DNA from: Salminus brasiliensis
Lineage: Eukaryota; Chordata; Actinopteri; Characiformes; Bryconidae
NCBI RefSeq assembly: GCF_030463535.1
Contig: NC_132891.1
Location: forward strand, 11,011,449 to 11,075,448
Reading direction: 5' to 3'
Length of the DNA: 64,000 bases
Under the pieces are notes generated by a model. That model saw only the letters and a program-made list of their open reading frames with translations, searched no databases and had not been told where the DNA came from. The position numbers and the translations under genes were made by a program. Shown one piece after another: positions 4,593 through 55,242 of this stretch. The number at the start of each line of letters is the position of its first letter. Within the stretch, counting starts at the first letter, position 1.

Positions 4593-4821
4593 TCAAAGGC
4601 TGGTGGAGGAGACGGACAGGGTGGGCGAGGAGGGCGGCGGGAAGTTGAGGAGCTCCAGGACGGCCACTCCTACGCTGCTGCGCCGTGTGAACATGCATGA
4701 CGCTGCCACCCACTTGTTGCTGCGAGGGTTGTATTTCTCAATGGAGTTTAGGCTGGAGCTGCCGTCGTTGCCCCCGACGGCGTACAGCCAGCCGTCCATA
4801 GCAACCAGGTCGTGGGTGCTC
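4593..4821 (-). CDS. klhl17: klhl17 exon 12: last Kelch repeat, conserved tail and stop
   Basis: The acceptor is CTACTTAG at 4823-4822 and the TGA stop is at 4595-4593. It encodes the end of residue 516 and 75 further residues: [38 protein letters not shown], then the tail [20 protein letters not shown] and a final Leu. The Ser/Pro-rich tail lies outside the Kelch propeller yet looks nearly invariant against the mammalian protein as I recall it. Confidence 0.96.
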
Positions 4822-7800
4822 CTAAGTAGAGTTGCAAAAGCATCAAAATATTGCATACTTTAATACTTTCAATTAAAATACAGTTTCGCAGCATTCACAA
4901 CATCACAATTTTAATATATGACTGAATTAATACAAAATTCAATGTGAAAGGAGCCAGACTAAAGTAAAGCCAAGACAAAATCAATTTCCGAAAGATTCAC
5001 TCTTTTTGTACAGTATGGATGCAGCAATGCATCGAAAAAACATGATATCGCAATGCTAACTGCGTGTCATAGAGCATGTATTGTAATTAGGACATAGAAC
5101 ATCTTGTAAGTATGAGAAAGAACATTATGGGACGTTATCTCAAAGCTGAAATACTTTCTCATAATAACAGGATGTTCTAGGTCATAATTATACATTTTTA
5201 CAATATACTCTCACAATAATGAGATACCTTACAAGATGTTTTAGGTGTTTTATGTTGCTTGGCAGTAATATGTCTCTACATAACAAAAAGTCAAAGAAAG
5301 ATTCATTAGAAATGCTTTAAAACGAGTTTATGCATTTTATTTTTTTATTTAAAGCCTCTCGCTCTGTGTTTTACTGTGTTTTATTTACCTGAGACCAATA
5401 GGAGAATTAAAAATGTGCAAGATCACCAAGTAAAGTGTTGCCACATCAAAAACTTAAAGGTTAGGCACTGATATGGGAGTCGTGGCCTAATGCTGAATTG
5501 CAATATTTTTTGCATATCTGATAATACTGACTGCATCTGCAGTACTCGGTTCAGCATTACAGAGAAATAAAGCATTCATTGCTTTATATATGCTGGAGTG
5601 CTACAGTTGAGCTTGCTCTGCAATAGGAAACCCCTACTAACTATGTTAGCTGCAGATTGGCCAGCGTGCCAACAGCTGCTGATTATAGTAATGCATTATT
5701 AATAGGCTGACCTCTTCACTATTAAAGAGTTTAAAAGTTCTCTCTCAAGTGCACAAAGTGAATTCTTAAGAGAACTACAACAATGCATTTTATATGATGA
5801 TATGTTAAACCAGAACTCACACCTGCCAGAAAATACTGGTCGTGGGGATGTTCGTTACCTGCGGATGTTCATGGGGGCCACTCCTTCCCATGTGTTGGTT
5901 TTCGGGTTGTACCGCTCCACTGAATTGAGGCAGCTAGTTCCATCGTTGCCTCCAGCAACATAGAGCATTCCCTCCAGCACAGCCACTCCAGCACTGCTCC
6001 TCCGGCTTAGCATGTTAGCTATAGCAGTCCATGTATTACTCTGAATGCAGAGGAAAAACAACATTGCATGGAAACGATGGGCAAAGGTTTAACCCATATG
6101 GAGTCAAAGAACATCAGACTAAGGATGCAAATTTAATACTGTTGTTTACTCGGGGATAAGTTAAAGGGACTGTCAGATACCTGTGGATCATACTTCTCTA
6201 CTGTGGCCAAATGTGAAGAGCTGTCATATCCACCAACTGCATACAGACTGCCATCTAAAAGAAAAGCATTGGGTATAAATAAGTTGTTTTTGTTTTGTTA
6301 TGGAAACGGATGCAGTACCAGCACATTCAGGAATGTAGCATAAACAGAAAAAAAATTGATCTAATCCCAAATTCCAGACAGGAAGCAGCCACATGGAGTA
6401 GTCAGATTTACAGGGAACATCTGTTTCTGTTGACAACACTCTAGATAGTGCATATTTCCAGTATGTGTGACAAAAGGTTGTTGCATGCAGATAGCTCACC
6501 TAGTGTGGCCACTCTAACATATCTTCTCCTGGTGCTCATGGCAGCAATTGACGTCCAAGTGCTGGTTAGTGGGTCATATCTCTCTGCGCTACAGGACAAG
6601 AAGAAAGAGGTCTGCACGATTACATTAATTAAATCAGATGATTTTGCTTGAATTGTGAAATCCATAAACATGCCCTAGATGAGTTAGCATCTACAATTCT
6701 ACAGTTTTGCTCCTGTTGAGCACAGATTCAGATGTGCTGGTGTAAGTTAACACAAAGGACCATGATTAATGAGTGTTACAGAGGAAACCTGTAAAGTGCA
6801 GAATTTAAGCCAATAAAGGAGATATTTATTTCCTACAGTTTTCCTTCCCATCCCTTAAAGATCTCCTACCTGTTGAGACAGGAAGCTCCATCATAGCCTC
6901 CAGCAGCATATAGCAGACCATGGAGCACCGCCACACCCAGACAGCTCCTCCTGGTTCCCATAGACACTTCTGGTTGCCAGCCGTTGGTCACAGGATCATA
7001 TGATTCAACGGTGGCCAAATCTGAAGTGCCATCATACCTGACAAGTGAACATGACTCAAGTTCACAAGAAATGTGACTGAAATATCCAGGATGTTGGTTT
7101 CAGAAAAAGTATAATTAAAAGATGCCAAGAAGACAGACTAGCACAACTGTGTTCTCTGGAATGACGGAGCCCCATCCAATACTGTTGGGAGGAGCTGGGG
7201 AGTTTGGGATGAGATGGGGTGCTGAATGCAATAAAATCCTCACAGTACTGCTCAAATCTAGTAGAAAGCCGTTCCTTGGAAGTAGAGACAATTAAACAAA
7301 AGCAGGATAAATGTTGTCTTTTATTTTTTCTTTAACCCTTGATTTCAGTAGAAACGAATGAGCAGGTGTCCCAATACTCTTGTCTATATAGTGTATAATC
7401 CTCAAATGACCCAACTTGCCTTCATATAATTTACAAAACACATGCCCCTTTTAATGCAGATGTTTAGACTTTTAGCTAATAAAAAGCACTCAGTAGCTCC
7501 TCCATCATTAAAGATGTTTAGTGCACAGCTCCTCCTGCTGGCCAGAGGTTAAATTCAGTCTTGCAGCGTTACATTGCATTTGACTGACGCTCTTTTCCAA
7601 ATATACTTACACTGCAATCGTTACATACACAGGCGAGATGTCAGATTAGGAGTCTTGCTCAAGGATTTTTATCAGTGTAGTGTGGTTTGCTTATTCAGAC
7701 AGGGAATCAAACCCCCATGTTCCACGGGGGATTCATTTTAAAGCTTTTTTTTAACCCACTACATCAACCACATCAACAGCACATGTTAGAATTACAATGA

Positions 7801-10773
7801 AAGTAATTTCTTAAATATTTCTTAACATGATTGTGTAGTGTGATTATTTACAGTACATCTATTTTGGTGCAAAGATTGCTGCCTGCAAAATGAATATTAT
7901 TGTTGTTTTCTATTCATAGATACTGACATCATTGCTTATATTGATCATTCAAATTATTAATTTCAAATAAATAAATTCAAATATTAATGCTAATTAACTG
8001 CATTTCTCCTACGTTCAAATTAACACATGCTCCAACCAGACGTGGGTCTGATCTCACAGGTATATCTGATTTAACCGTACACAACTTTGATAATTTAGAG
8101 CCAATGTGTATCATAATATACTCAAAGGGCAAGACCTAGCTAAGCTAAGCTAAGACCGAGACTTGGCAAAATGGGAAATTAGTTAAAAGAAAAGGATACA
8201 TATTATCCAGGCTACACAACCGCTGCTACAAAAACGTTTAGATCTTTGTATAGATAATGGTAGGTCATAGCTCCTCGTAGCTCTAAACAATGTTTTTCTT
8301 GTCCCTTATGCCCCCCCCCCCACAATTGCTTAAACTGGTATTAATCATTTTTGCATGATCATTTTCCAAGCTCTTTATCCCTTAGAACTATACTGCTGAT
8401 TTGTTCCTATGCCTTGAACATGGATCTATGTAAATGAACATGTACTGAACTGCTGCCCTGTATTGAGCCCCATACAGCAAAAAAAGCAAGTCAGTCCAGG
8501 TTAAAACACTGCACATAAGCCTGAAAATGTTGAATTGAAGTATATGCATGTTGTTTTTGACATCATAGGAACAATGTATTTTAATTAGACTTCATTTCCA
8601 TCTCTGGACTGTGTGGAATAGAGTAAACGCTATGTTGTGAAAATACAACAATGTTTACATACTATACCAGGAAACTTTAGTTATGCATAAATATGGGCCC
8701 TTTAAGAAACAAACTTCAGACACCACACATGTGTTGACTGATATACTACATTTAACCTGAGATAAAAATGACAGAGAAAAACATGTGAACTTAAGTTAAG
8801 TTTTCTTCATCAAATACTTTAACCTTTGGAAAGAAATAAAAGGTCCTTACCCGCCCACAGCATAGAGCTTGTTTCCAATAGCAGCAACACCAACTCGGGC
8901 CCGTCGTGTAGACATGGAGGCCACCATGTGCCAGCGATCTGTCCTAGTGTCATACGCCTCACAATCTCCGTGGATGGCAAAGAGACTGCCTCCACCTGAG
9001 AGGCCACAAGAGGTTTAAACAGGGTTTAAAATGTATTTATGTGTATATTATTCTTGCTATTACTGATGTGTGTCTTTCTGGCCAGGTGGTTTTGAAGCAG
9101 CAGCAGCAGGGTGCGACAACTGTTTGTTTTGTTTTTTTCGCTTCTGGGCTCCCCCTACAGCAGGGGAGTGTAATTCACTTTTACACCACTGCCATAAAGA
9201 CAATGAAGTAGAGAAATATTACAGGATTTTACACAAAGATGACCCTGGTCACGTAGAGTTATGCAGGTTGTGAGAGTGGTCTCGTGCAGCTCCACCAAAG
9301 TTACATTATGCAGCAGCAGCATCCTAAGCAATGACAGACGCCATCCTCCCCATTACAGGTCAATAGTGCTTCAAAATGATGATGAAGCGGTTGTCTTAAG
9401 GTCAAACTGCCACACAATGTTGAAAAATATGAAACAAGCTTCAGATAAACAACTGTTTTCTGATTCTTTGAGTATATGTGTCATAACACTCCTCTTAATT
9501 TAAGTGTCTTATTATGAATAGTAGGTCTCTTTGTGGTAGATTATTAATCTTTTAGGTGTTAAGACCTCTTGAGGAGTGGAGAGGACTTCACCATGAGACC
9601 AGGGGACAAAATGGGTGGCATTATTCCCGAGGCATTGCAGCCCATTTCTTCTTCATTTAATAAAACATATGCTACATGGACAAAATTATTAGGGCAACTC
9701 ATTTATTGTTTCTTCTGAAATCAAGGGTATATTAAAAATACATATCCATGGAAGGCTTACTACTAGATAGTGAAGCACTGCTGTGAGGACTTGATGGCAT
9801 TCAAGAGTGTGAGTGAGGCCAGGATGCTGAATGATTACCATCCCAAAAGTACTAGATGGAGCTCAATCATTCCAGAGAACACAGTTCCACTGCTCCACAG
9901 CTCAATGCGGGGGAGCTTTATACCCCTCTTGCCCATGGCTGGTGCCAATATGTTTGTGTCCCAGATGCTCCTATAGGCAATATTTCTCTACAGGCACTAG
10001 ACAAGCTGAGTGTCTGCATTAGGCGCAGCTTAGAAAGGGTGTCCACAAACATTTGGGCATATAGTATATACATTTAACATAATATAATTGCCTGATATAT
10101 AACAATTAATAACAATGTTGTGGGTCTTGCACAAGAACTCACCCACAGCAAATAACACAGGGCTGGCTCCCTCACAGCGGCGGGGTCGGGTTCGGCTGTT
10201 ACTCAGCACACCTCTCTGCTCAGGCATCAGGTGGTACTTAAGTGCCTCGATCAGCAGGTCCTTGCACTCCGAGTGGTGCCGAACCAGCAGCTCTGTGTCC
10301 ACGTTACTCATCAGGAAGTCCCGCGTCAGCAGCGGAAGACGCACACACTTCATCAGCTAGGGGAGAAGCAAGACAGTGAGGGCGTGAAAATAAAGATATT
10401 GACCAAAAGTGGACAGAAAGAGAGAGGGGCAGTGACAGGGGAAGTGGGATTTAGGGAGGGAGAAAAATAGAAAGAGATGAGTTAAGAAGATCCTCTTGTT
10501 TTGAGCAGTCTTGAGCCGTTACGATTCCTCGTTTAAACTCTTTTTTTCCAGTAATGTAATAAAAATAACATGCGTGGTTTATTAATAAGGACAGACTTAC
10601 TACTTATCACTGTGCTGCAGAAAGTCTAAAAAGACAAGCAGAACATCACTCACTCGAGGTACATGCTGCCTTCGTCCATCAATGTCGTGCTTGACCCAGC
10701 TAAGCACAGCCCTGTACACTTCCTCCTCTGATGGAACATTCAGATTATCACTAGAGATCAGGTCCAGAACCTG

Positions 10774-15200: not shown

Positions 15201-17620
15201 AAAGTCTACTGACTCATGAAGATACTTATTATTAGTTCTGAAAAAACTGGATGGAATGAGTCTACAGCAACACTTTCATGTGACCTGGCAGATGATTTTG
15301 TAATGACAGTAGTGGAAATGCTTGACCGACCTCTGTGTCAGCTGGCTGTATTCATTAAGAACTACTCTCATTTCATTCCCAACATGCTTACGTCAAGTAT
15401 ATAACTGAGGACATAATGGAGAAGACACCATGCAGCTTCATTAGAATGCTTAAGGAAGCATACCTGTACATTGCCTTCCCCCACTACTATCTCAGCAGTG
15501 TAGGCATACTGCACCAGCTGCTCCAGCGCCTGTGGATCGATGTCATGCAAGGTCACGTGCGTCTGGCGGCTCTCAGACATCTCATCTGCACAATCGTACA
15601 CAATCACACCCAATCTCAAGCTGCTTTTAACATGTTGGATATTAAAATTGAAATGAAAGAAAGGTCAGTCTGGCAGGTGGTTAGAAAATCATGGTAATAA
15701 TAAAGCCTGACATTTAGGTTAAATGAAATAACTAGGTGAGAATCTGATCACATCTGGGTGTCACATTTTTGGACAGGATTTGCTAATCAATTCAAAACAA
15801 AAGAGGAATTCCATCTGTGTTCACATGTTTCTGGTATCTATATTACATTTTAAATGTCATATTTGTACATACTATCTCATACTTAACAGTGACAATGTGT
15901 CAGAGCTTTTCTCAGATGTATTGCAGGACATAACAGATGCAGAGTCTGTCTTGTAACTGGGAAGCAGACATGTGCTGATATTCTGTAATAAGGTAAAGTG
16001 GTAAGCAAAATTTCTGTTTCAAAAAGGCATAAAATGAATGACAAAATATTATTTTCAACATTTCAAGCACGATTAGTGTATGAAGGCTCTTAAATCTTTT
16101 ACCAATGTCTCAGACCTTAATTAGCTTGTTAGAACAATGGCTTGTTCACTAACATTTGCATTAGTGACTTTTATTTTGACACCATTTGTTTGCTCAGAAA
16201 TGAAATACATGACGTATATATTTTAGCGATCTTGTGGGAGCTGTCAAACCTAGCACCACGTAGCTTGATTTGGACGGAAAAATGTACGCCTTGCATAGTT
16301 CGGAACGCGCAAAAGGCATGTACAACGTCTCTTAGTCAATCATGGGTGTGTTTCTGGCGTAACATGCAACTTGCCAATTCCTTCAAGAGGCAAATGCGGT
16401 CTGACTTTGGTGGATTTGGCGCAAAATTTACCTGAACACTCCTCATTTCGAGACCATCATGGCCATTGGCGTAGATATATTCGCAAGCACCTTTACTATT
16501 CAAACGTCAAAATAGACTGTTGGCGGGGTGTAAGATAGCAATGAGCATCTTGACGCACCTTGCGCAAGGTATAAAACAGGGCCCATATATCAGCACATGC
16601 CTACTAGGTCTAACCTGCAAAAGCATCCAAAACAAACATGAGCATACTGATAACTGGTGACTGAGAAACATTTCTGGATGGAATTCTGCTTTGGCTCCAA
16701 TTATCTTGGAAACATTACGGTGCAAATCAGGGATTAAAGGCAGTTTGTAGTGAACTCCACAGGTGTATGGTAAGTTCAGAAAAGTAATGGCACGGTTTTG
16801 CCCACACTGTCCTGAGACATACCATCACACTCTAGCCTGAGGTGTAGTGGAGAAGAGGAGGAGAGATAGGAAAAACACGGCACCTGCTGACCTAAGACCG
16901 GAAAGGGAAGAGAATTCAGCATGGAAAACATAATGGGAGGCGAGGTAAAGCAGGAAGTGCTTCAATAGGAAGCTGAGCTAATGCAGCTATAGGACACAAA
17001 CAAACAGAATGAGTTTTACTATGTACTGAAATTGAAGGCATGGAGCATAACAACGATGATGAACTTGGGAATGGCTTTAATGGGTCCAACTGGTGACAAA
17101 TGAAGTTGCTCTGTTTTTTTTCCTGACAACTTTAAACCCATTGTAAAAAATGAGGGAAATGCATGTATGATTGCATTAGTTGGGCACGCTTATGTAGATG
17201 AGACAGAATGAAAGACAGAATGAGAGACGGCTGGGCAAAGTGGCACCCAAGTAATGAGAGAGGCACAGTGCCAGGAAGGTATTTAGCTAACAAATTAAGA
17301 GGGTGTGCGCAATCTATCTTCAACCAAAGCAGTCTCAAACAGTTTCCACATTATTGCATTTCGTTAGGGGCGAAACAGCTAAAATAGAAAAGAGAAAGTA
17401 ACCTACTTGTAAACATGGCGTGAAAATAGGGGCTACAGGAAGCCAGGACCACCTTATGGGCCTTGATCTCCTTGTTGGCCACATGCAGGACGATGTCACA
17501 CAGCAGCCCCCGCTGCCGCATCCTGTTCATGGACACGAAGGAGTCGTGGTAGTGGCGTTTGGAGTTGTGCGAGATGCTGTGACCATCGCGATTCAGCAGT
17601 TGCATGCCCCCCTCCATCAT
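4593..17620 (-). CDS. klhl17: Kelch-like protein 17 (actinfilin), complete coding region, 11 coding exons
   Basis: BTB-BACK-Kelch substrate adaptor of a Cullin-3 ubiquitin ligase. In mammals it is neuronal, binds F-actin at the postsynaptic density and targets the kainate receptor subunit GluR6 (family knowledge). Coding exons in transcript order: 17620-17407, 15585-15464, 14269-14048, 10770-10654, 10356-10143, 8995-8851, 7037-6870, 6588-6500, 6254-6181, 6040-5859 and 4821-4593. All junctions are in phase and give 591 residues. The BTB fold starts near residue 39 (LLCDIVLHV), BACK covers roughly 143-245, and six Kelch repeats run from about 292 to 572, with the recurring AVGG/AAGG and YDP/YNP...W motifs. 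A short tail follows. I chose the start at 17620 (MMEGG) because it aligns with an internal methionine of the longer mammalian protein; exon 2 is open for 16 further codons upstream without a methionine, so an upstream start cannot be excluded. Paralogues such as klhl20 are less likely because of the exact match to the KLHL17-specific C-terminal tail as I remember it. Confidence 0.95.
4822..5858 (-). other. klhl17 intron 11
   Basis: About 1.0 kb of AT-rich sequence. The words ATGATATCGCAATGC near 5041 recall repeats with ATATCG motifs seen elsewhere, but nothing definite. Confidence 0.6.
5859..6040 (-). CDS. klhl17: klhl17 exon 11: Kelch repeats 4 and 5
   Basis: The acceptor is GCATTCAG at 6042-6041 and the donor AG|GTAACG at 5859/5858. 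Residues 456-515 include [40 protein letters not shown] and APMNIRR. It is 182 nt and ends in phase 2. Confidence 0.95.
6181..6254 (-). CDS. klhl17: klhl17 exon 10: Kelch repeat 4
   Basis: This short exon of 74 nt has acceptor CTTTTAG and donor CAG|GTATCT. Residues 431-455 are [20 protein letters not shown] then YDPQ. Confidence 0.93.
6500..6588 (-). CDS. klhl17: klhl17 exon 9: Kelch repeat 3 to 4
   Basis: The acceptor is CCTGTAG at 6590-6589 and the donor G|GTGAGC at 6500/6499. Residues 401-430 are [20 protein letters not shown] then RRYVRVATL. The final split codon gives Asp with exon 10. It is 89 nt. Confidence 0.94.
6870..7037 (-). CDS. klhl17: klhl17 exon 8: Kelch repeats 2 and 3
   Basis: The acceptor is CTTGTCAG at 7039-7038 and the donor AG|GTAGGA at 6870/6869. 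Residues 345-400 include [34 protein letters not shown] and [15 protein letters not shown]. It is 168 nt and ends in phase 2. I translated it directly from the sequence. Confidence 0.94.
7141..7396 (+). mobile_element. Non-autonomous DNA transposon family copy A (3' half), klhl17 intron 7
   Basis: Contains the family words ACTGTGTTCTCTGGAATGA, ATCCTCACAGTACTGCTC, GAGCAGGTGTCCCAATACT and a TATAGTGTAT end. At least nine further copies or fragments occur in this window. Non-coding. Confidence 0.65.
7570..7715. repeat. Dispersed repeat fragment, klhl17 intron 7
   Basis: Contains TGACTGACGCTCTTTTCCAA, AGGAGTCTTGCTCAAGG and AGGGAATCAAACCCCC, the same family type as 30178-30300. Confidence 0.45.
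8851..8995 (-). CDS. klhl17: klhl17 exon 7: Kelch repeat 1 and start of repeat 2
   Basis: The acceptor is CCTCTCAG and the donor GG|GTAAGG. It encodes residues 297-344 ([21 protein letters not shown], then [16 protein letters not shown] and KLYAVGG). The diglycine and Y..W spacing are typical of Kelch blades. It is 145 nt and ends in phase 2. Confidence 0.95.
9672..10070 (-). mobile_element. Same DNA transposon family, copy B, inverted, klhl17 intron 6
   Basis: Near full length in inverse orientation: ACATGGACAAAATTATTAGG on the left, ACACAGTTCCACTGCTCCAC in the middle and GTGTCCACAAACATTTGGGC on the right. Ends at ATAGTATATA. Confidence 0.7.
10143..10356 (-). CDS. klhl17: klhl17 exon 6: end of BACK and linker to Kelch repeat 1
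   Basis: The acceptor is CCCCTAG at 10358-10357 and the donor G|GTGAGT at 10143/10142. It encodes residues 226-296: [26 protein letters not shown], then the basic segment [10 protein letters not shown] and the first beta strand PVLFAVG. It is 214 nt and ends in phase 1, completing a glycine with exon 7. Confidence 0.95.
10654..10770 (-). CDS. klhl17: klhl17 exon 5: BACK domain
   Basis: It encodes residues 187-225 ([19 protein letters not shown] then VLSWVKHD), the central BACK helices. The donor is CGA|GTGAGT. The acceptor is CTGCAG directly preceded by about 72 nt of TG repeat on the transcribed strand, so the usual polypyrimidine tract is replaced by the microsatellite. It is 117 nt, phase 0 at both ends. 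Confidence 0.94.
10776..10850. repeat. CA (TG on transcript) microsatellite at the klhl17 exon 5 acceptor
   Basis: About 37 uninterrupted CA units on the plus strand. On the transcribed strand it reads (TG)n immediately before CTGCAG of the exon 5 acceptor. Confidence 0.98.
11482..11662 (+). mobile_element. Same DNA transposon family, copy C (5' part), klhl17 intron 4
   Basis: Starts CACTATATCTATTCCAAATG, then TACTTTAAGCTGCACTCACT and CTAGTCCCTGTAGAGAAGTA. Truncated after TAATGCCAGGCGTAGGC. Confidence 0.65.
12160..12740. repeat. Compound low-complexity block: GT repeat, A-run, GA-rich tract, GAGT repeat
   Basis: GT repeat at about 12168-12196, 34 A at 12197-12230, then a purine-rich tract from 12365 to 12720 with GAGA, GAAAG and a tandem GAGT block near 12557-12590. 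On the klhl17 transcript this is a pyrimidine-rich stretch of over 350 nt within intron 4. Three overlapping open frames here are composition artefacts. Confidence 0.9.
13440..13630 (-). mobile_element. Same DNA transposon family, copy D, fragment, klhl17 intron 4
   Basis: Inverse-oriented fragment recognised by CTACTGTCCAAGGAAGGCTT, GATAGCATTCAGCGACAAGA and CATCCCAAAAGTACTGGGG. It contains C-runs and a short local duplication (CTCCTCAACTCATCCCAAA). Confidence 0.55.
14048..14269 (-). CDS. klhl17: klhl17 exon 4: 3-box and start of the BACK domain
   Basis: The acceptor is GTGAAG at 14271-14270, preceded by CTTCACAA on the plus strand and therefore pyrimidine-poor. The donor is CAG|GTAAAG at 14048/14047. 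It encodes residues 113-186, from [19 protein letters not shown] through [13 protein letters not shown] to MLLPLKQ. This covers the helices after BTB and the N-terminal half of BACK. It is 222 nt, phase 0 at both ends. Confidence 0.94.
14504..14675 (+). mobile_element. Same DNA transposon family, copy E, 5' fragment, klhl17 intron 3
   Basis: Left end AAAGGTTTGTGGACACC, then ATGAATTCAGCTGAACT and CTAGAGGGGTATATAAG. Strongly diverged. Confidence 0.5.
15464..15585 (-). CDS. klhl17: klhl17 exon 3: second half of the BTB domain
   Basis: The acceptor is TGTGCAG at 15587-15586 and the donor CAG|GTATGC at 15464/15463. It encodes residues 72-112, [20 protein letters not shown] then [15 protein letters not shown], which is the distal BTB region used for dimerisation and Cullin-3 contact in this family. 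It is 122 nt long and ends on a full codon. Confidence 0.95.
15586..17406 (-). other. klhl17 intron 2
   Basis: 1.8 kb; apart from the possible repeat at 16230-16600 and a short Tc1-like fragment near 16110-16145 (CAGACCTTAATTAGCTTGTT, also at 1710), I see nothing else. Confidence 0.7.
16230..16600. repeat. Possible dispersed repeat, klhl17 intron 2
   Basis: Sequence with many GCGCAA and GGCGTA words (ATGGGTGTGTTTCTGGCGTA, TTGCGCAAGGTATAAAACAG) that resembles a fish DNA-transposon-derived repeat. I cannot define its ends. Confidence 0.3.
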
Positions 17621-17668
17621 GGCGCTGTGCTCCGAGGCCCGCTGCTGCCTGAGCCTCACTCTCAGCAA
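17407..17668 (-). CDS. klhl17: klhl17 exon 2: start codon and first half of the BTB domain
   Basis: The acceptor is TTTACAG at 17670-17669 and the donor A|GTAGGT at 17407/17406. The first 48 nt are treated as 5' UTR, although open in frame. Coding starts at 17620 with two adjacent methionines. Residues 1-71 include [20 protein letters not shown], then the start of BTB with its buried core ([20 protein letters not shown]). It ends in phase 1, and the split codon gives Asn72. Confidence 0.93.
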
Positions 17669-19794
17669 CTGTAAACACACCAGAACAACATTCCCTTATG
17701 CTTAATCAGCGTTCACTCTCAGATATGCAGAATAGAAACATCGGCACCAATTTCTCGCCCTTGACAGCTTTGATCTTGAAGAGAGGAGAATGGCAGTGAA
17801 TCTGACAACAACTGACAAGCAACCTGCATCAGCAGGCCAGATTTGGACCAGGCTGGGCAGCTAACAATTAAGGGACAAAGCCCCTGCATTTGGCTCGACA
17901 GTGAACCATGCACCTGTATGATCATCTACAGGAACTACAGAAACTGCTAGAAATGCATGTTAACATACAGGATTCAGCTCAGTCCAAACACAAGGAATTC
18001 TGTACTCATGCAGGCAGCACTTAATACATGTGTCTTATATTTGTGCATAATTACAAATTGCTTTAACTAAAAGCCACAAATTTCTTTGAATCTGACAATT
18101 TTGTGGAAATTTGGGAAAGCGGCGAAGAGATTTGTTGCTTGCATGTCAACAGCAGCTGAGTGACATAAAAATGAACATGATAAGCTAAACAGAACAGAAT
18201 ACCATGATACCGTTAATCTGCCAGAATCTTAAAAAAAAACACTGTGATACAAATTTTTACATGTTTATCACCTAGACCTACTGTTAATACGTCATGTACT
18301 GTCCTCTTAAAAACATACTAACAGACTGCCCCATCCAGCAACTACTGTTCATATATTATCAGGTAAAATGATCATTTAATCATGATATTGATTTGAGGTC
18401 ATATAGCCCAGCACTAACACACTCATAATTATCTTTACCTTTGAGACACCTGCACCACCTGCAAAACTCTATATAAGGCTCTCCCTGTTTATCTATATGA
18501 CAGCAACACAGGCTGAATGTTTAGGCTTACAACATGAACATTAACGTGACCAGCCTGAACATAAACAAGAGACCTAGGGGCAGAGCCATGTGGCAAAGAA
18601 CGTCCCAGGGGTGGAGCCATGTGAGAAAGTGTATACAAACCTGAGAATAACATAATAAAAAAAGAGATGAAAAACATATAGAAGACAAATGCAAATAGGG
18701 GTAATTATACTGACCGACTGAATTTTTACTCTCCCAAAATCAGCATCGCCTCAACATTTTCATATTAGTCAGACCATAATACCTCAATTGAAGCTAAGCC
18801 CAAAACAAAGGCAGACAAAAAACAAACAAACAAACAAAAAGACAAAAAAGACATTTTTTGATATATGACAAGACATGGATTGAAAAATGGATTTTCTGGC
18901 TTTAACAGTAGCGAAAAATCAAGGGATAGATTTTATTCCACTGACTGACAACAGCAGTGCACTCCAAGCACGCCAGTGCAGAGCTTGAAAACGGTCCAAG
19001 TTTGCTGTGGTTTGGCATATGGGACGCACTGCCCGCTTAACAAATAACACAGACACAGTAAATGTGCATTGGATTACATGACCACAAGTAAAGGGCTTTC
19101 AGACAGAGCTCACATGCCCAGGATCATAAACATCAGCCACACATAAGAACCTGAAAAGACAGCACAATGCAGCAACACAAATACATGCCAGAAATATGCC
19201 AGTTGTCTTATTTAGTTCTGCCTCTACAATGCTGCCCAATTTTCCCTTTAACCTACTCATCCATCACAAGAGCACAAATGGTGGCCTCCAGCTAGACCAG
19301 CTGCAGAGTGCTATAGGAGCAGAGGAAAAGGAGGAGGGAGAAGGCAGCCAGACTAAAGCTCTTATGCATCACAAAATTATTAAAACGCTTAGTGTGGGAC
19401 AAGGACACTTCTGCTCATTTCCACCTTAAAGCAACACTGCTGTTCAACCAGTCTTATCTAGGAGTCCTACCAATGGCACGCTGGCTTCCCGGCTTTAAAT
19501 GATATCTGAGTAAATAAAGGAATGGCACGACTGAAACCAGTGTTGTGGTTAGGGTAATGGTTTGTGTTTCCACAGGTTGTGCACGCCCATTCAACTCTGG
19601 TTTCGGCAGATCATTTCTAAACTCATAGTTCGGCAAAGAAAATCAAAGTTTGCTTTGTGTCTGATGTGAGCTTCTCTCATTTAGAACAGGAGATGCTAAG
19701 CGAACAATGCTAACATACCTTGGACAGACACAAATCTCATCTTGGTAAATACATGCCAAAATCTTCATTTATGGCAGTTATTTATGGCATTTAT

Positions 19795-20500: not shown

Positions 20501-22753
20501 CATATTTAAGAGGACCGGTGGATACGACCGATGCTACGAGACTACGCGATCATTAAGCACCTGCAGGCGACCACTGCGCTGTCCACTGTGGGTGGTAATG
20601 TCTACTATGTCGCATACAGGTTACAGGTGTGGGCCTTCCCAAGCCGTCCCCTGAGGTAATGCCACTTCATACTTAATGTACATACTGCTGTCAATCAAAC
20701 AGAAAGTTAACACAGAGCTGATTTACTTATGGTGGGGTCACATGTACTAGTTTAACTTTTATTATAAATAATGCAGCTAGGAGAGAGTGCACAGAGCAAG
20801 TGTATAGTGTAATAGGCTTGGCTGTTACTGTGACCGGCTGTGTAGACTAGAAGGGTTCCAAGTACAGATAAACCTTTGGTTACAAATATCCGCTACGGCA
20901 CAGTGCAACCTGATAAAACTTAAATAATGTATTGTGTAAAGCAGACGGAGCAGAACAGAATGGCACTTGCTGCTGAGCGGTCGGGTTAAGGCCTGTCCAG
21001 CTGCTCTGCCCCCCTACGTCAAAAAAACGCAAGCGAGCTGACCTGTTAAAGTTTTATCCACTCGTCTGTCAGAAGAAAAAACTGCTGCTGAAAAAACTGA
21101 AAACCTGCTCATGTAAGTGACACTTCCAGAGTCAACACTGGTAATGAAATTCCTACGGAAAGGAGCTTATCGGCAAGCAATGGTGAAACACAATTCCCAA
21201 TGATCCTTACTTCAAATACAAGCAAAGTACTTTCTGTACAGACCTATCTACTCATTACCAGTGGCCAGCGTCTAGAGCTAGTAACAGCCCTCCATCTGAC
21301 TCAGCATACTGTACACCCCTCAGGATCCCGAGATTAACAGATGCACTGAATAAAAGGCACTTATTGCTGTTATGTCTAATAATGGTGTCTCTTCTGGTTG
21401 TCTGTGCCACAGCAATGCAGATGCCCAGCAGTCTTGTTTGAAAGGACTGAGGACCTCCACTAGCATTTCCTCTCCTAACCACCACCCCCTATTGCACAGC
21501 CATCAGAGAGGGAGAACGCTGAAGGGAACACACTGTCTTACCTGTAACGATGGGCTAGATGGTCAGTCGTTTGAGCTCTGCTGCTCTGATAATGGCTGGA
21601 GGAGCTCTGTCAGCTCTGCACCTTAGCGTCCAGAGCCGTGCAGGACATATGAAAAATGTATAAGCCCCCTTTAGTTTGGGGGTTTGTATGCTGTTGACGT
21701 AAATGCAAACGGTATGAACGCTGCGTGCTGACATCCTGTTTTAAGGTGGAACGAAAACCCGGAGCTGTATATAATTGAGCTAACGGCGGCGGCTCCAGGT
21801 CCAGAATGTGAAACTCCGCCCCGGGTTTTCCGTCCGACTGCACGGACGGCTGCTGTGCAGCTGGGCTGCAGCTGAGAAATCCAGGCAGCTGGAACCAAAT
21901 CACGGAGCGGATTTTTTTACTATCTGGACCTGGATTTGCAAACAGTAAATATATTGCTCACCCTCACTGCCCCCACATCAACCCACACATTTGTACTGAT
22001 ACAATAACACCTAACTAACACTACACTGGTCAAATATATCAATACATTAGCTAAATCCCTGATATCGGGCTGAGAAAACTGGACTTCTGCTTCGCTCCTC
22101 AGTCAGTCCACCTTAAAACCCAGCTGTCTTGTATCCTCACAAAAAGCCATCTTAACCCAAACCAGCGACTGCTTAGACAGGTTTTCACAGACTTGATGCA
22201 CATTTGCACCCAGGTGAAGGAAGCCTGAGCGAGAAAGACGTGTTTTAGAGCTAGAAACGGTTGGGCAGTTATTAGATACAGCTGAAATGAATAAAGGGGA
22301 GCTAGGTTAGATAGCAGCAAGGCTAACCGCTATCAATATACTGACTGCCTGAAGTGACAGTTGGGTTGCTATCTAGCTAAGGTTTAAACCGCCTCAGGTT
22401 AACAATATTGAAAACACATAAAAGAGCATATATACGAGTTAAAACATGGGGGTTGCGGTGGCTTTCTAACCGGAGACCAGCATCAGGCTATCAGTGCTGT
22501 CCCAGCTTGAACAAAGGCACTTACTGGGAGGAAGATGCGACCATTAGGTTTCGCTAGCTGGTAACTTAGCTACTTCCACCCGGTTTCATTAGATAGCTAC
22601 ACTGCTCCTACTTTCCTCCACAAACCAAACGCGTTTACCTCGCTTGCTATCTATCTATCTCTATCTCTGCTGGTCGAGCTGCCTCATACCTAGCTAGCTA
22701 ACTTACGCCGCCTCTTCTTTACACACCATCAAATCAGCCCCTGAAACACTCAC

Positions 22754-22850
22754 CTGACGACGTCGCCTGGGTCTGACTGACAGCGCGTGTTTCCTCCTGC
22801 GAGCAACTCTCTCCAGTTTTATCTAAGGACGGGGATGATGGCCATACAGC
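22754..22850 (-). other. klhl17: klhl17 exon 1, non-coding 5' UTR (5' end approximate)
   Basis: On the minus strand a strong splice donor (CAG|GTGAGT) sits at 22754/22753, in CpG-containing sequence facing noc2l. The next exon acceptor in the gene is at 17668. The transcription start cannot be read from sequence, so 22850 is only a guess. If the exon extends this far, it holds a small upstream ORF (22845-22819). I see no in-frame ATG leading into the BTB protein in this exon. Confidence 0.55.
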
Positions 22851-23208
22851 GAGCTTTAACCAACGATATTTTCTATCTAGGCTGGCTAACTACAGTGACA
22901 TGCGATAATTAGACGTCTCTCCAAAACACAGAGCTCCCTCTCTTACATTTTACTGCCTTAGACAGGCTCCCTCAAACACGCGTGATTTTCTGTTTTACAT
23001 CCCCGAGCGAACATTTTTTTTATTTACTTATTATAGCGAAACATGAACCCATGGACGTGTTTAAGCAAATGTACGGAGCTCCAAAAGGATCAGGGTAGAA
23101 AATTAATACTGACCGTATTGCCTTTACACGTTCCCTTTATTTAATAAGTCGCTCCCTTACTTTAACATTTTATTTCCTCATTTTAAAGAGGGCGCTGATA
23201 GACGGAAT

Positions 23209-23670
23209 GATCTATTAAATCAACTGAATGATCTATTAAATCAACGGGATGATTTATTAAATCAACTGAATGATCTATTAAATCAACTGAATGATCTATT
23301 AAATCAACGGGATGATTTATTAAATCAACTGAATGATCTATTAAATCAACTGAATGATCTATTAAATCAACGGGATGATTTATTAAATCAACTGAATGAT
23401 CTATTAAATCAACGGGATGATTTATTAAATCAACTGAATGATCTATTAAATCAACTGAATGATCTATTAAATCAACGGGATGATTTATTAAATCAACTGA
23501 ATGATCTATTAAATCAACTGAATGATCTATTAAATCAACGGGATGATCTATTAAATCAACTGAATGATCTATTAAATCAACGGGATGATCTATTAAATCA
23601 ACTGAATGATCTATTAAATCAACTGAATGATTTATTAAATCAACGGGATGATCTATTAAATCAACGGAAT
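23209..23670. repeat. 21-bp minisatellite, exactly 22 tandem units, in the bidirectional promoter
   Basis: Each unit reads GAT(C/T)TATTAAATCAAC followed by TGAAT (type A) or GGGAT (type B); the last unit ends GGAAT. The order is A B A A B A A B A B A A B A A B A B A A B B. In the first two-thirds of the array, units after a B start GATTTA rather than GATCTA. This makes 42- and 63-bp higher-order blocks. Units are almost identical, which suggests recent expansion. The T-variant contains the 13-bp inverted repeat GATTTATTAAATC. Confidence 0.97.
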
Positions 23671-23859
23671 AGTTTAAGTTAATTTTTCCACCTTTGTGCC
23701 TTAGGGGCTCCGTACAGATGGATTTAATAATTTAATCATTTTAATCCCAGATCTCAAAACACGTGGTTAAATATGACTTCTCTTGGTTCTGTAACTTTGA
23801 GCCTCTCGGGTGTTTCTCGCCGTGAAACAAAACGGAACCCAAAAGATCAACGGTGTGGA

Positions 23860-23875
23860 GCAGGGGATTGTGGGT
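23860..23875 (-). promoter_or_regulatory. Possible ZNF143-type (SBS) promoter element
   Basis: On the minus strand the bases read TACCCACAATCCCCTG, close to the SBS consensus (T/A-CCCA-C/T-AATGC). It lies about 33 bp before the noc2l start codon. Such sites are common in bidirectional housekeeping promoters. The match is imperfect after AAT. Confidence 0.3.
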
Positions 23876-23907
23876 ACGGCGTCTAAGAAGCACGTTGGTG
23901 ATCCAGC

Positions 23908-55242
<31,335 letters not shown>

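Follow-up and report, generated by a model that had tools for sequence, protein, structure and literature searches.

The stretch of the Salminus brasiliensis genome analysed here, 64,000 nucleotides of contig NC_132891.1 (C14:11011449-11075448 in our numbering; hereafter the window), contains a minisatellite of 22 units of 21 bp lying between two divergent genes, klhl17 on the minus strand and noc2l on the plus strand. We suggest that this is quite probably a young, locus-specific, AT-rich array that was born by slippage and now sits, most likely near neutral, as a non-coding spacer in a domain that keeps its CpGs. The history, youth and neutrality that we infer for it are read from the sequence of a single assembly, and the spacer that it forms is probably neither transcribed nor coding. 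It is a further case of a known kind, the minisatellite, with a growth history that is unusually readable. If it is neutral, it would provide a readable example of how a minisatellite may start, with its seed repeats and its ancestral-looking edge unit, and of how such an array grows by 168-bp blocks, and it would also be a likely single-locus length marker; if it is functional, it would allow the effect of repeat number on two divergent genes to be tested.

Read unit by unit, the array runs from 23203 to 23664 (+) in the register CTGAATGATCTATTAAATCAA, as 22 units of 21 bp with no indels, and the interval 23209-23670 reported in the first-pass annotation of this DNA is the same 22-unit array in a shifted register. 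The unit count given there is borne out by TRF as well (period 21, 22.2 copies, 90% matches, 0% indels, score 771, 23205-23670). With many head-to-tail copies (22 x 21 bp) of a unit longer than about 10 bp, the array belongs among the minisatellites, a class defined by unit length (PMC3899988). Five unit types are present, in the order DABAABAABABAABAACACAEC, and 18 of the 21 unit columns are invariant across all 22 units, the variation being confined to column 2 (T in 13 units, G in 9), column 4 (A in 14, G in 8) and column 10 (C in 16, T in 6). Columns 12-15 never vary, so that every unit does hold an ATTA core, as had been noted, but the "dozens" of sites then envisaged come to 22, one per unit. 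The palindrome that had been ascribed to the T-variants, the 13-bp odd palindrome GATTTATTAAATC, is likewise restricted to the six of 22 units with T in column 10. An odd palindrome with 14 paired bases, a value reached in 0.7% of shuffles, is present in B units and not in A units (6 bases, reached in 77%). The 27 matches to the core pattern (at most two mismatches) were reached in 0 of 100 shuffles of the window, which averaged 0.15. Foldings of 105-base pieces were better than shuffles for the T-bearing left part of the array (z -3.5 on one strand and -2.9 on the other) and not better for the right part (z -1.1 and -0.2); the strand-hairpin signal, which comes from these four foldings only, is weak.

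The order of the units carries a higher period. When units are coded by their starts as a (CTGAAT) or b (CGGGAT), with the edge unit as d, the array reads d-abaabaab-abaabaab-abaab, and the joint absence of bb and aaa was seen in 0.125% of 20000 unit shuffles. Lags of 1, 2, 3, 5 and 8 were examined on this string; with the edge unit omitted, lag 8 gave 13 matches out of 13, reached in about 0.01% of shuffles, and lag 3 gave 14 out of 18 (P 0.012). At the level of bases, with the edge unit again omitted, the comparison at lag 168 (8 units) covered 273 positions and showed 4 differences, each of them at column 10; at lag 63 there were 12 in 378. The A-B-A blocks of 63 bp described in the first-pass annotation thus reflect an order that is real and non-random, but 168 bp is the better higher-order period. 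Two full copies of the 168-bp super-repeat, at 23224-23391 (+) and 23392-23559 (+), differ from each other at one position, and a partial third copy of 105 bp at 23560-23664 (+) differs from each of them at three.

The edges of the array suggest how it may have begun. The edge unit starts with CGGAAT, a word that also stands directly after the last unit, and the longer ACGGAAT, searched for on both strands, is found in the window only at 23202-23208 (+), at the left edge, and at 23664-23670 (+), at the right edge, where the two copies form a putative seed direct repeat. Among 62585 control positions there were three pairs of 7-mers matching at the same distance of 462, and none of these was a 7-mer occurring only twice. 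Counted from the edge unit D, types A and C are one substitution away and types B and E two. In one model of their origin, minisatellites arise by slippage at short direct repeats, and by such a route the klhl17-noc2l spacer of the ancestor would have held the 7-bp word ACGGAAT twice, as direct repeats at a distance of 21 bp. The 21-bp segment would have been duplicated by slippage or unequal exchange at these copies, with the edges keeping the ancestral form; single substitutions would then have given the inner A (CTGAAT) and B/C (CGGGAT) forms, after which triplet-like arrangements would have grown and a late duplication of 168 bp (8 units), probably the last growth step, would have led to the present 22 units. 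The ACGGAAT words at the edges and the inner units close to the edge form fit a birth by slippage, a mechanism that we infer from one allele. The likeness to the general model lies in ACGGAAT bounding the array at both ends, its copies one unit length apart in the reconstructed ancestor; the difference is that the short ancestral allele is here deduced from a single present-day allele.

In searches of the genome (1,066,335,885 bases in 103 contigs), an array of the 21-bp unit was found at one locus only. With up to two mismatches allowed, the A unit gave at least 17 matches in the array and at least two isolated ones, on contigs C1 and C17, while the control, the same unit written backwards, gave at least one match; these counts are lower bounds. 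A search with the left flank of the array gave a single genomic match. The viral collection has no exact counterpart of the unit plus one base, nothing in 21000-26000 reaches the gathering score of an Rfam family, and no tRNA is present in the window. As a base rate, 20 genome pieces totalling 200000 bases (10000 of them N) were run through TRF, overlapping rows being merged by eye. Arrays at least 200 bp long with a period of at least 8 numbered ten, once overlaps were merged, and were spread over 8 of the 20 pieces; none of the ten had both a period below 60 bp and 90% matches along its length. In the sampled pieces, then, long tandem arrays are common, and the 21-bp array is not of the commonest kind. 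Its length, read here from one assembly, probably varies between individuals.

The genes on the two sides were identified from their exons. On the klhl17 side, the best solved match of the kelch exon (4596-4859) is KLHL17 (6hrl, E 2.3e-82), followed by KLHL20 (6.9e-67), and the two halves of a BTB domain lie at 17354-17695 and 15371-15664. The best solved matches of the first BTB frame are other BTB proteins, and its link to the kelch exons therefore rests on order and strand. This klhl17 exon, 17407-17668 (-) with splice ends predicted from sequence, includes the first portion of the BTB domain (E 8.5e-15) as well as the start codon (17620), which is about 5.6 kb from the array. Between 22300 and 24100, one minus-strand donor passes a simple pattern (CAG/GTGAGT, first intron base 22753), and it marks the end at 22754 of a putative non-coding klhl17 first exon, 22754-22900 (-), for which the donor side only is supported and 22900 is a guess. 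On the other side, noc2l was named from the exon at 32008-32289, which has a Noc2 domain (E 3.2e-25) and Noc2 homologues. Its first coding exon (ATGGCAGGGAAAAACAAGAG) lies at 23908-23927 (+), with the ATG at 23908-23910 and the donor GTGAGT from 23928, and near this start, at 23864-23874 (+), is GGGATTGTGGG, which presumably resembles promoter sites of the ZNF143/THAP11 type.

Between the donor end of the putative first exon of klhl17 and the start of the array there are 449 bp, and the array ends 243 bp upstream of the noc2l ATG. Its placement between a klhl17 first exon and the noc2l start codon, as first annotated, stands in so far as the array does separate two divergent genes, but the only part of klhl17 that comes near is the putative non-coding exon. 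On the noc2l strand each of the 22 units opens with ATG-ATY-TAT-TAA, and on the klhl17 strand there is no ATG within the array. A noc2l transcript starting upstream of the array would have a leader full of short frames, and a noc2l start downstream of it (23671-23907) is therefore predicted; the two further upstream ATGs, one at 23718 and one at 23773, point to a start near the gene itself. From the exon side of the putative klhl17 donor (22754) to the noc2l ATG (23908) there are 1155 positions, and the distance between the human KLHL17 and NOC2L TSSs is given as 1328 bp (PMC12044007). In the literature searched, no paper joins klhl17, noc2l and "bidirectional".

The spacer as a whole stands out by its CpGs. 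When 200-bp steps are joined wherever their CpG o/e reaches 0.75, the longest run in the window is 22901-24000, which contains the array and measures 1100 bp, the next-longest being 400. For steps starting at 22601-23801, o/e was at least 0.75 in 12 of 13 and at least 1.0 in 9 of 13, as against 44 and 6, respectively, of the 626 steps elsewhere in the window. The four steps lying (almost) wholly inside the array have 4 CpGs each (o/e 1.02-1.19), a count close to the average for the window (3.7 in 200 bp), and the high o/e of the array owes much to its low GC; nevertheless, none of 44 equally AT-rich steps elsewhere has 4 CpGs or an o/e of 1, their mean o/e being 0.24. The nine CpGs of the array show no C-to-T change at column 1 and no G-to-A change at column 2. 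Such a content would suit an unmethylated promoter domain and, inside the array, would also be explained by the copying of a young unit, and since CpGs may be copied with the unit, the o/e of the array alone is no proof of absent methylation. A promoter-type domain that includes the array, and a shared promoter at this location, are plausible. The bidirectional promoter of the first-pass annotation, by definition a pair of genes on opposite strands whose starts lie within about 1 kb, is a candidate here, made plausible by the divergent genes and the CpG run 22901-24000, with start sites that are putative. A separate CpG-richer patch, at 21601-22000, lies past the putative first exon in the direction of the klhl17 coding exons, with 11, 14 and 8 CpGs per 200-bp step and o/e 0.60-0.93.

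Since the array lies between divergent genes, in a spacer that keeps its CpGs, it might act on them as a promoter VNTR, its copy number tuning one or both genes through spacing or through a nucleosome-poor AT-rich tract. We consider this unlikely; a functional role is possible and is not our first expectation, and the effect, if any, would most likely come from a change in promoter spacing or from an AT-rich gap between the start regions. Several human promoter VNTRs, among them 5-HTTLPR (20-23-bp units), the MAOA uVNTR and the TYMS 28-bp repeat, differ in copy number between alleles, and effects of this on expression have been reported. Like them, the array consists of units of some 20-30 bp in tandem that precede a gene start, variant units following one another in mixed order; unlike them, it lies between divergent genes, has a 168-bp super-repeat and is known here from the sequence of one assembly. 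In yeast, promoter repeats are described as affecting nucleosomes and expression (Vinces et al., cited in PMC3899988), and in humans 163 of 10264 genotyped VNTRs are listed as associated with the expression of a nearby gene (PMC8024321), a fraction that at the same time amounts to only 1.6%. The units also fail to favour the two-helical-turn spacing put forward in the first-pass annotation: the 10.5-bp power of AA/TT and of WW was not significantly above that of shuffled units (A units, P 0.37 and 0.45; B units, P 0.92 and 0.999), and the unit length is all that speaks for it.

The orthologous human spacer offers further context. Its tag SNP rs13303010 is reported to be associated in opposite directions with KLHL17 and NOC2L expression in pancreas, and one of two SNPs tested there gave allele-dependent reporter activity (rs13303327, with rs13303010 minimal), so sequence in that human spacer can matter; the SNP that the authors regard as functional, rs13303160, lies outside the human spacer (PMC12044007). 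Among fishes, minisatellites occur in the GH introns of Sparus aurata, and for MSTN-2 there are length alleles of both the promoter and the first intron (PMC3045353). These are cases of repeat-based length polymorphism in and near fish genes, of which the present array may be another, with different genes and units and read from one assembly. In Haemophilus influenzae, a TA repeat in the hifA/hifB bidirectional promoter sets the spacing of the -10 and -35 elements (PMC3899988); there, as here, a repeat lies between two divergent genes and its length could change both, but that is a 2-bp repeat in a bacterium, and this is an array of 21-bp units outside any mapped core promoter. In the literature searched for minisatellites, bidirectional promoters and fish, nothing seemed to resemble this array.

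Much less credible than a general tuning by copy number is a homotypic PBX-HOX (TALE) cluster, in which each unit would present TGATNNAT on one strand, 21 bp apart. Slippage at the 7-bp repeat would then have recently built 22 same-strand sites of PBX-HOX type, with copy number dosing the TALE/HOX input to klhl17 and noc2l, together or oppositely, and we give this little credence. The word TGATNNAT is indeed repeated in 22 of 22 units, 6 times as TGATTTAT and 16 times as TGATCTAT, although the motif was chosen post hoc, after the unit had been seen. Near the putative klhl17 first exon, TGACTGACAG at 22774-22783 is one base from TGATTGACAG, which we take to be a PBX-PREP word. Published motifs agree in part: TGATTTAT is described as a TALE:HOX motif in zebrafish embryos (PMC6023610), TGATNNAT as a HOX-PBX motif (PMC8707757), and TGATTTATAG is said to match the HoxA9 consensus perfectly (PMC6532930). 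Of the enriched cores listed in the part of PMC8707757 drawn on here, none is the CT core that 16 units carry. NF-Y sites are said to accompany early TALE binding (PMC6023610), and CCAAT is missing from both strands in 21.5-24.4 kb. Shuffled A units contain TGATNNAT in 4.7% of cases and TGATTTAT in 0.6%; outside the array the word is nothing special, with 55 of the 77 matches in the window against a whole-window average of 50.6 in shuffles. The broader argument of the first-pass annotation, that ATTA in every unit makes a homeodomain-type array, is weak and provides no evidence of one, as ATTA also occurs in 61% of shuffled A units.

That the array could be the inside of a small DNA transposon was considered on account of the inverted arms TGTACGGAGC... 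at 23070-23106 and 23679-23716, and this origin can be mostly rejected as very improbable. The arms pair over 33 nt with 76% complementarity, and their gapped alignment score was reached by 4 of 1000 shuffles; 8 of 614 segment pairs at the same distance in the window nevertheless score as high, no target-site duplication was seen by eye, and the left arm with its flank has a single match in the genome, which argues against membership in a MITE or DNA transposon family. A coding role, with the array encoding a coiled-coil peptide, has practically no chance and is rejected. The 21-bp unit would give seven codons and heptads (DLLNQLN/DLLNQRD) in one forward frame that is open from stop to stop for 189 codons. 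This frame draws hits to 20 Pfam families (E up to 0.01), many of them coiled-coil families, but only one of these (COG3_N, 29.6 against 27.9) passes its cut-off, with no stretch significant alone. No methionine was seen in this frame or in the reverse one of 182 codons. Of the three variable columns, one is silent and two alter the residue (L/R, N/D), and any unit that has no stop and a length divisible by 3 remains open at any copy number.

Other tandem repeats were seen in passing. The first intron of noc2l has a 55-bp unit at 24507-24727 (4.0 copies, 97% matches) that contains GCTGGTCAACCAGC, and the 200-bp steps 24501-24700 and 24601-24800 at this repeat have zero CpG, unlike the nearby 21-bp array; words resembling this 55-bp repeat recur in a 146-bp unit in one of the sampled genome pieces (L024:9066-9544). 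A different 21-bp tandem repeat, AT-rich and more decayed, lies at 51109-51185 (3.8 copies, 68% matches). Among the other sampled pieces, one from C2 near 4.0 Mb has long decayed CCTAA-rich arrays (L014:1-3013 and 8774-9733), and in another, from C4 near 16.0 Mb, a 138-bp satellite occupies all 10 kb sampled (L020:1-10000).
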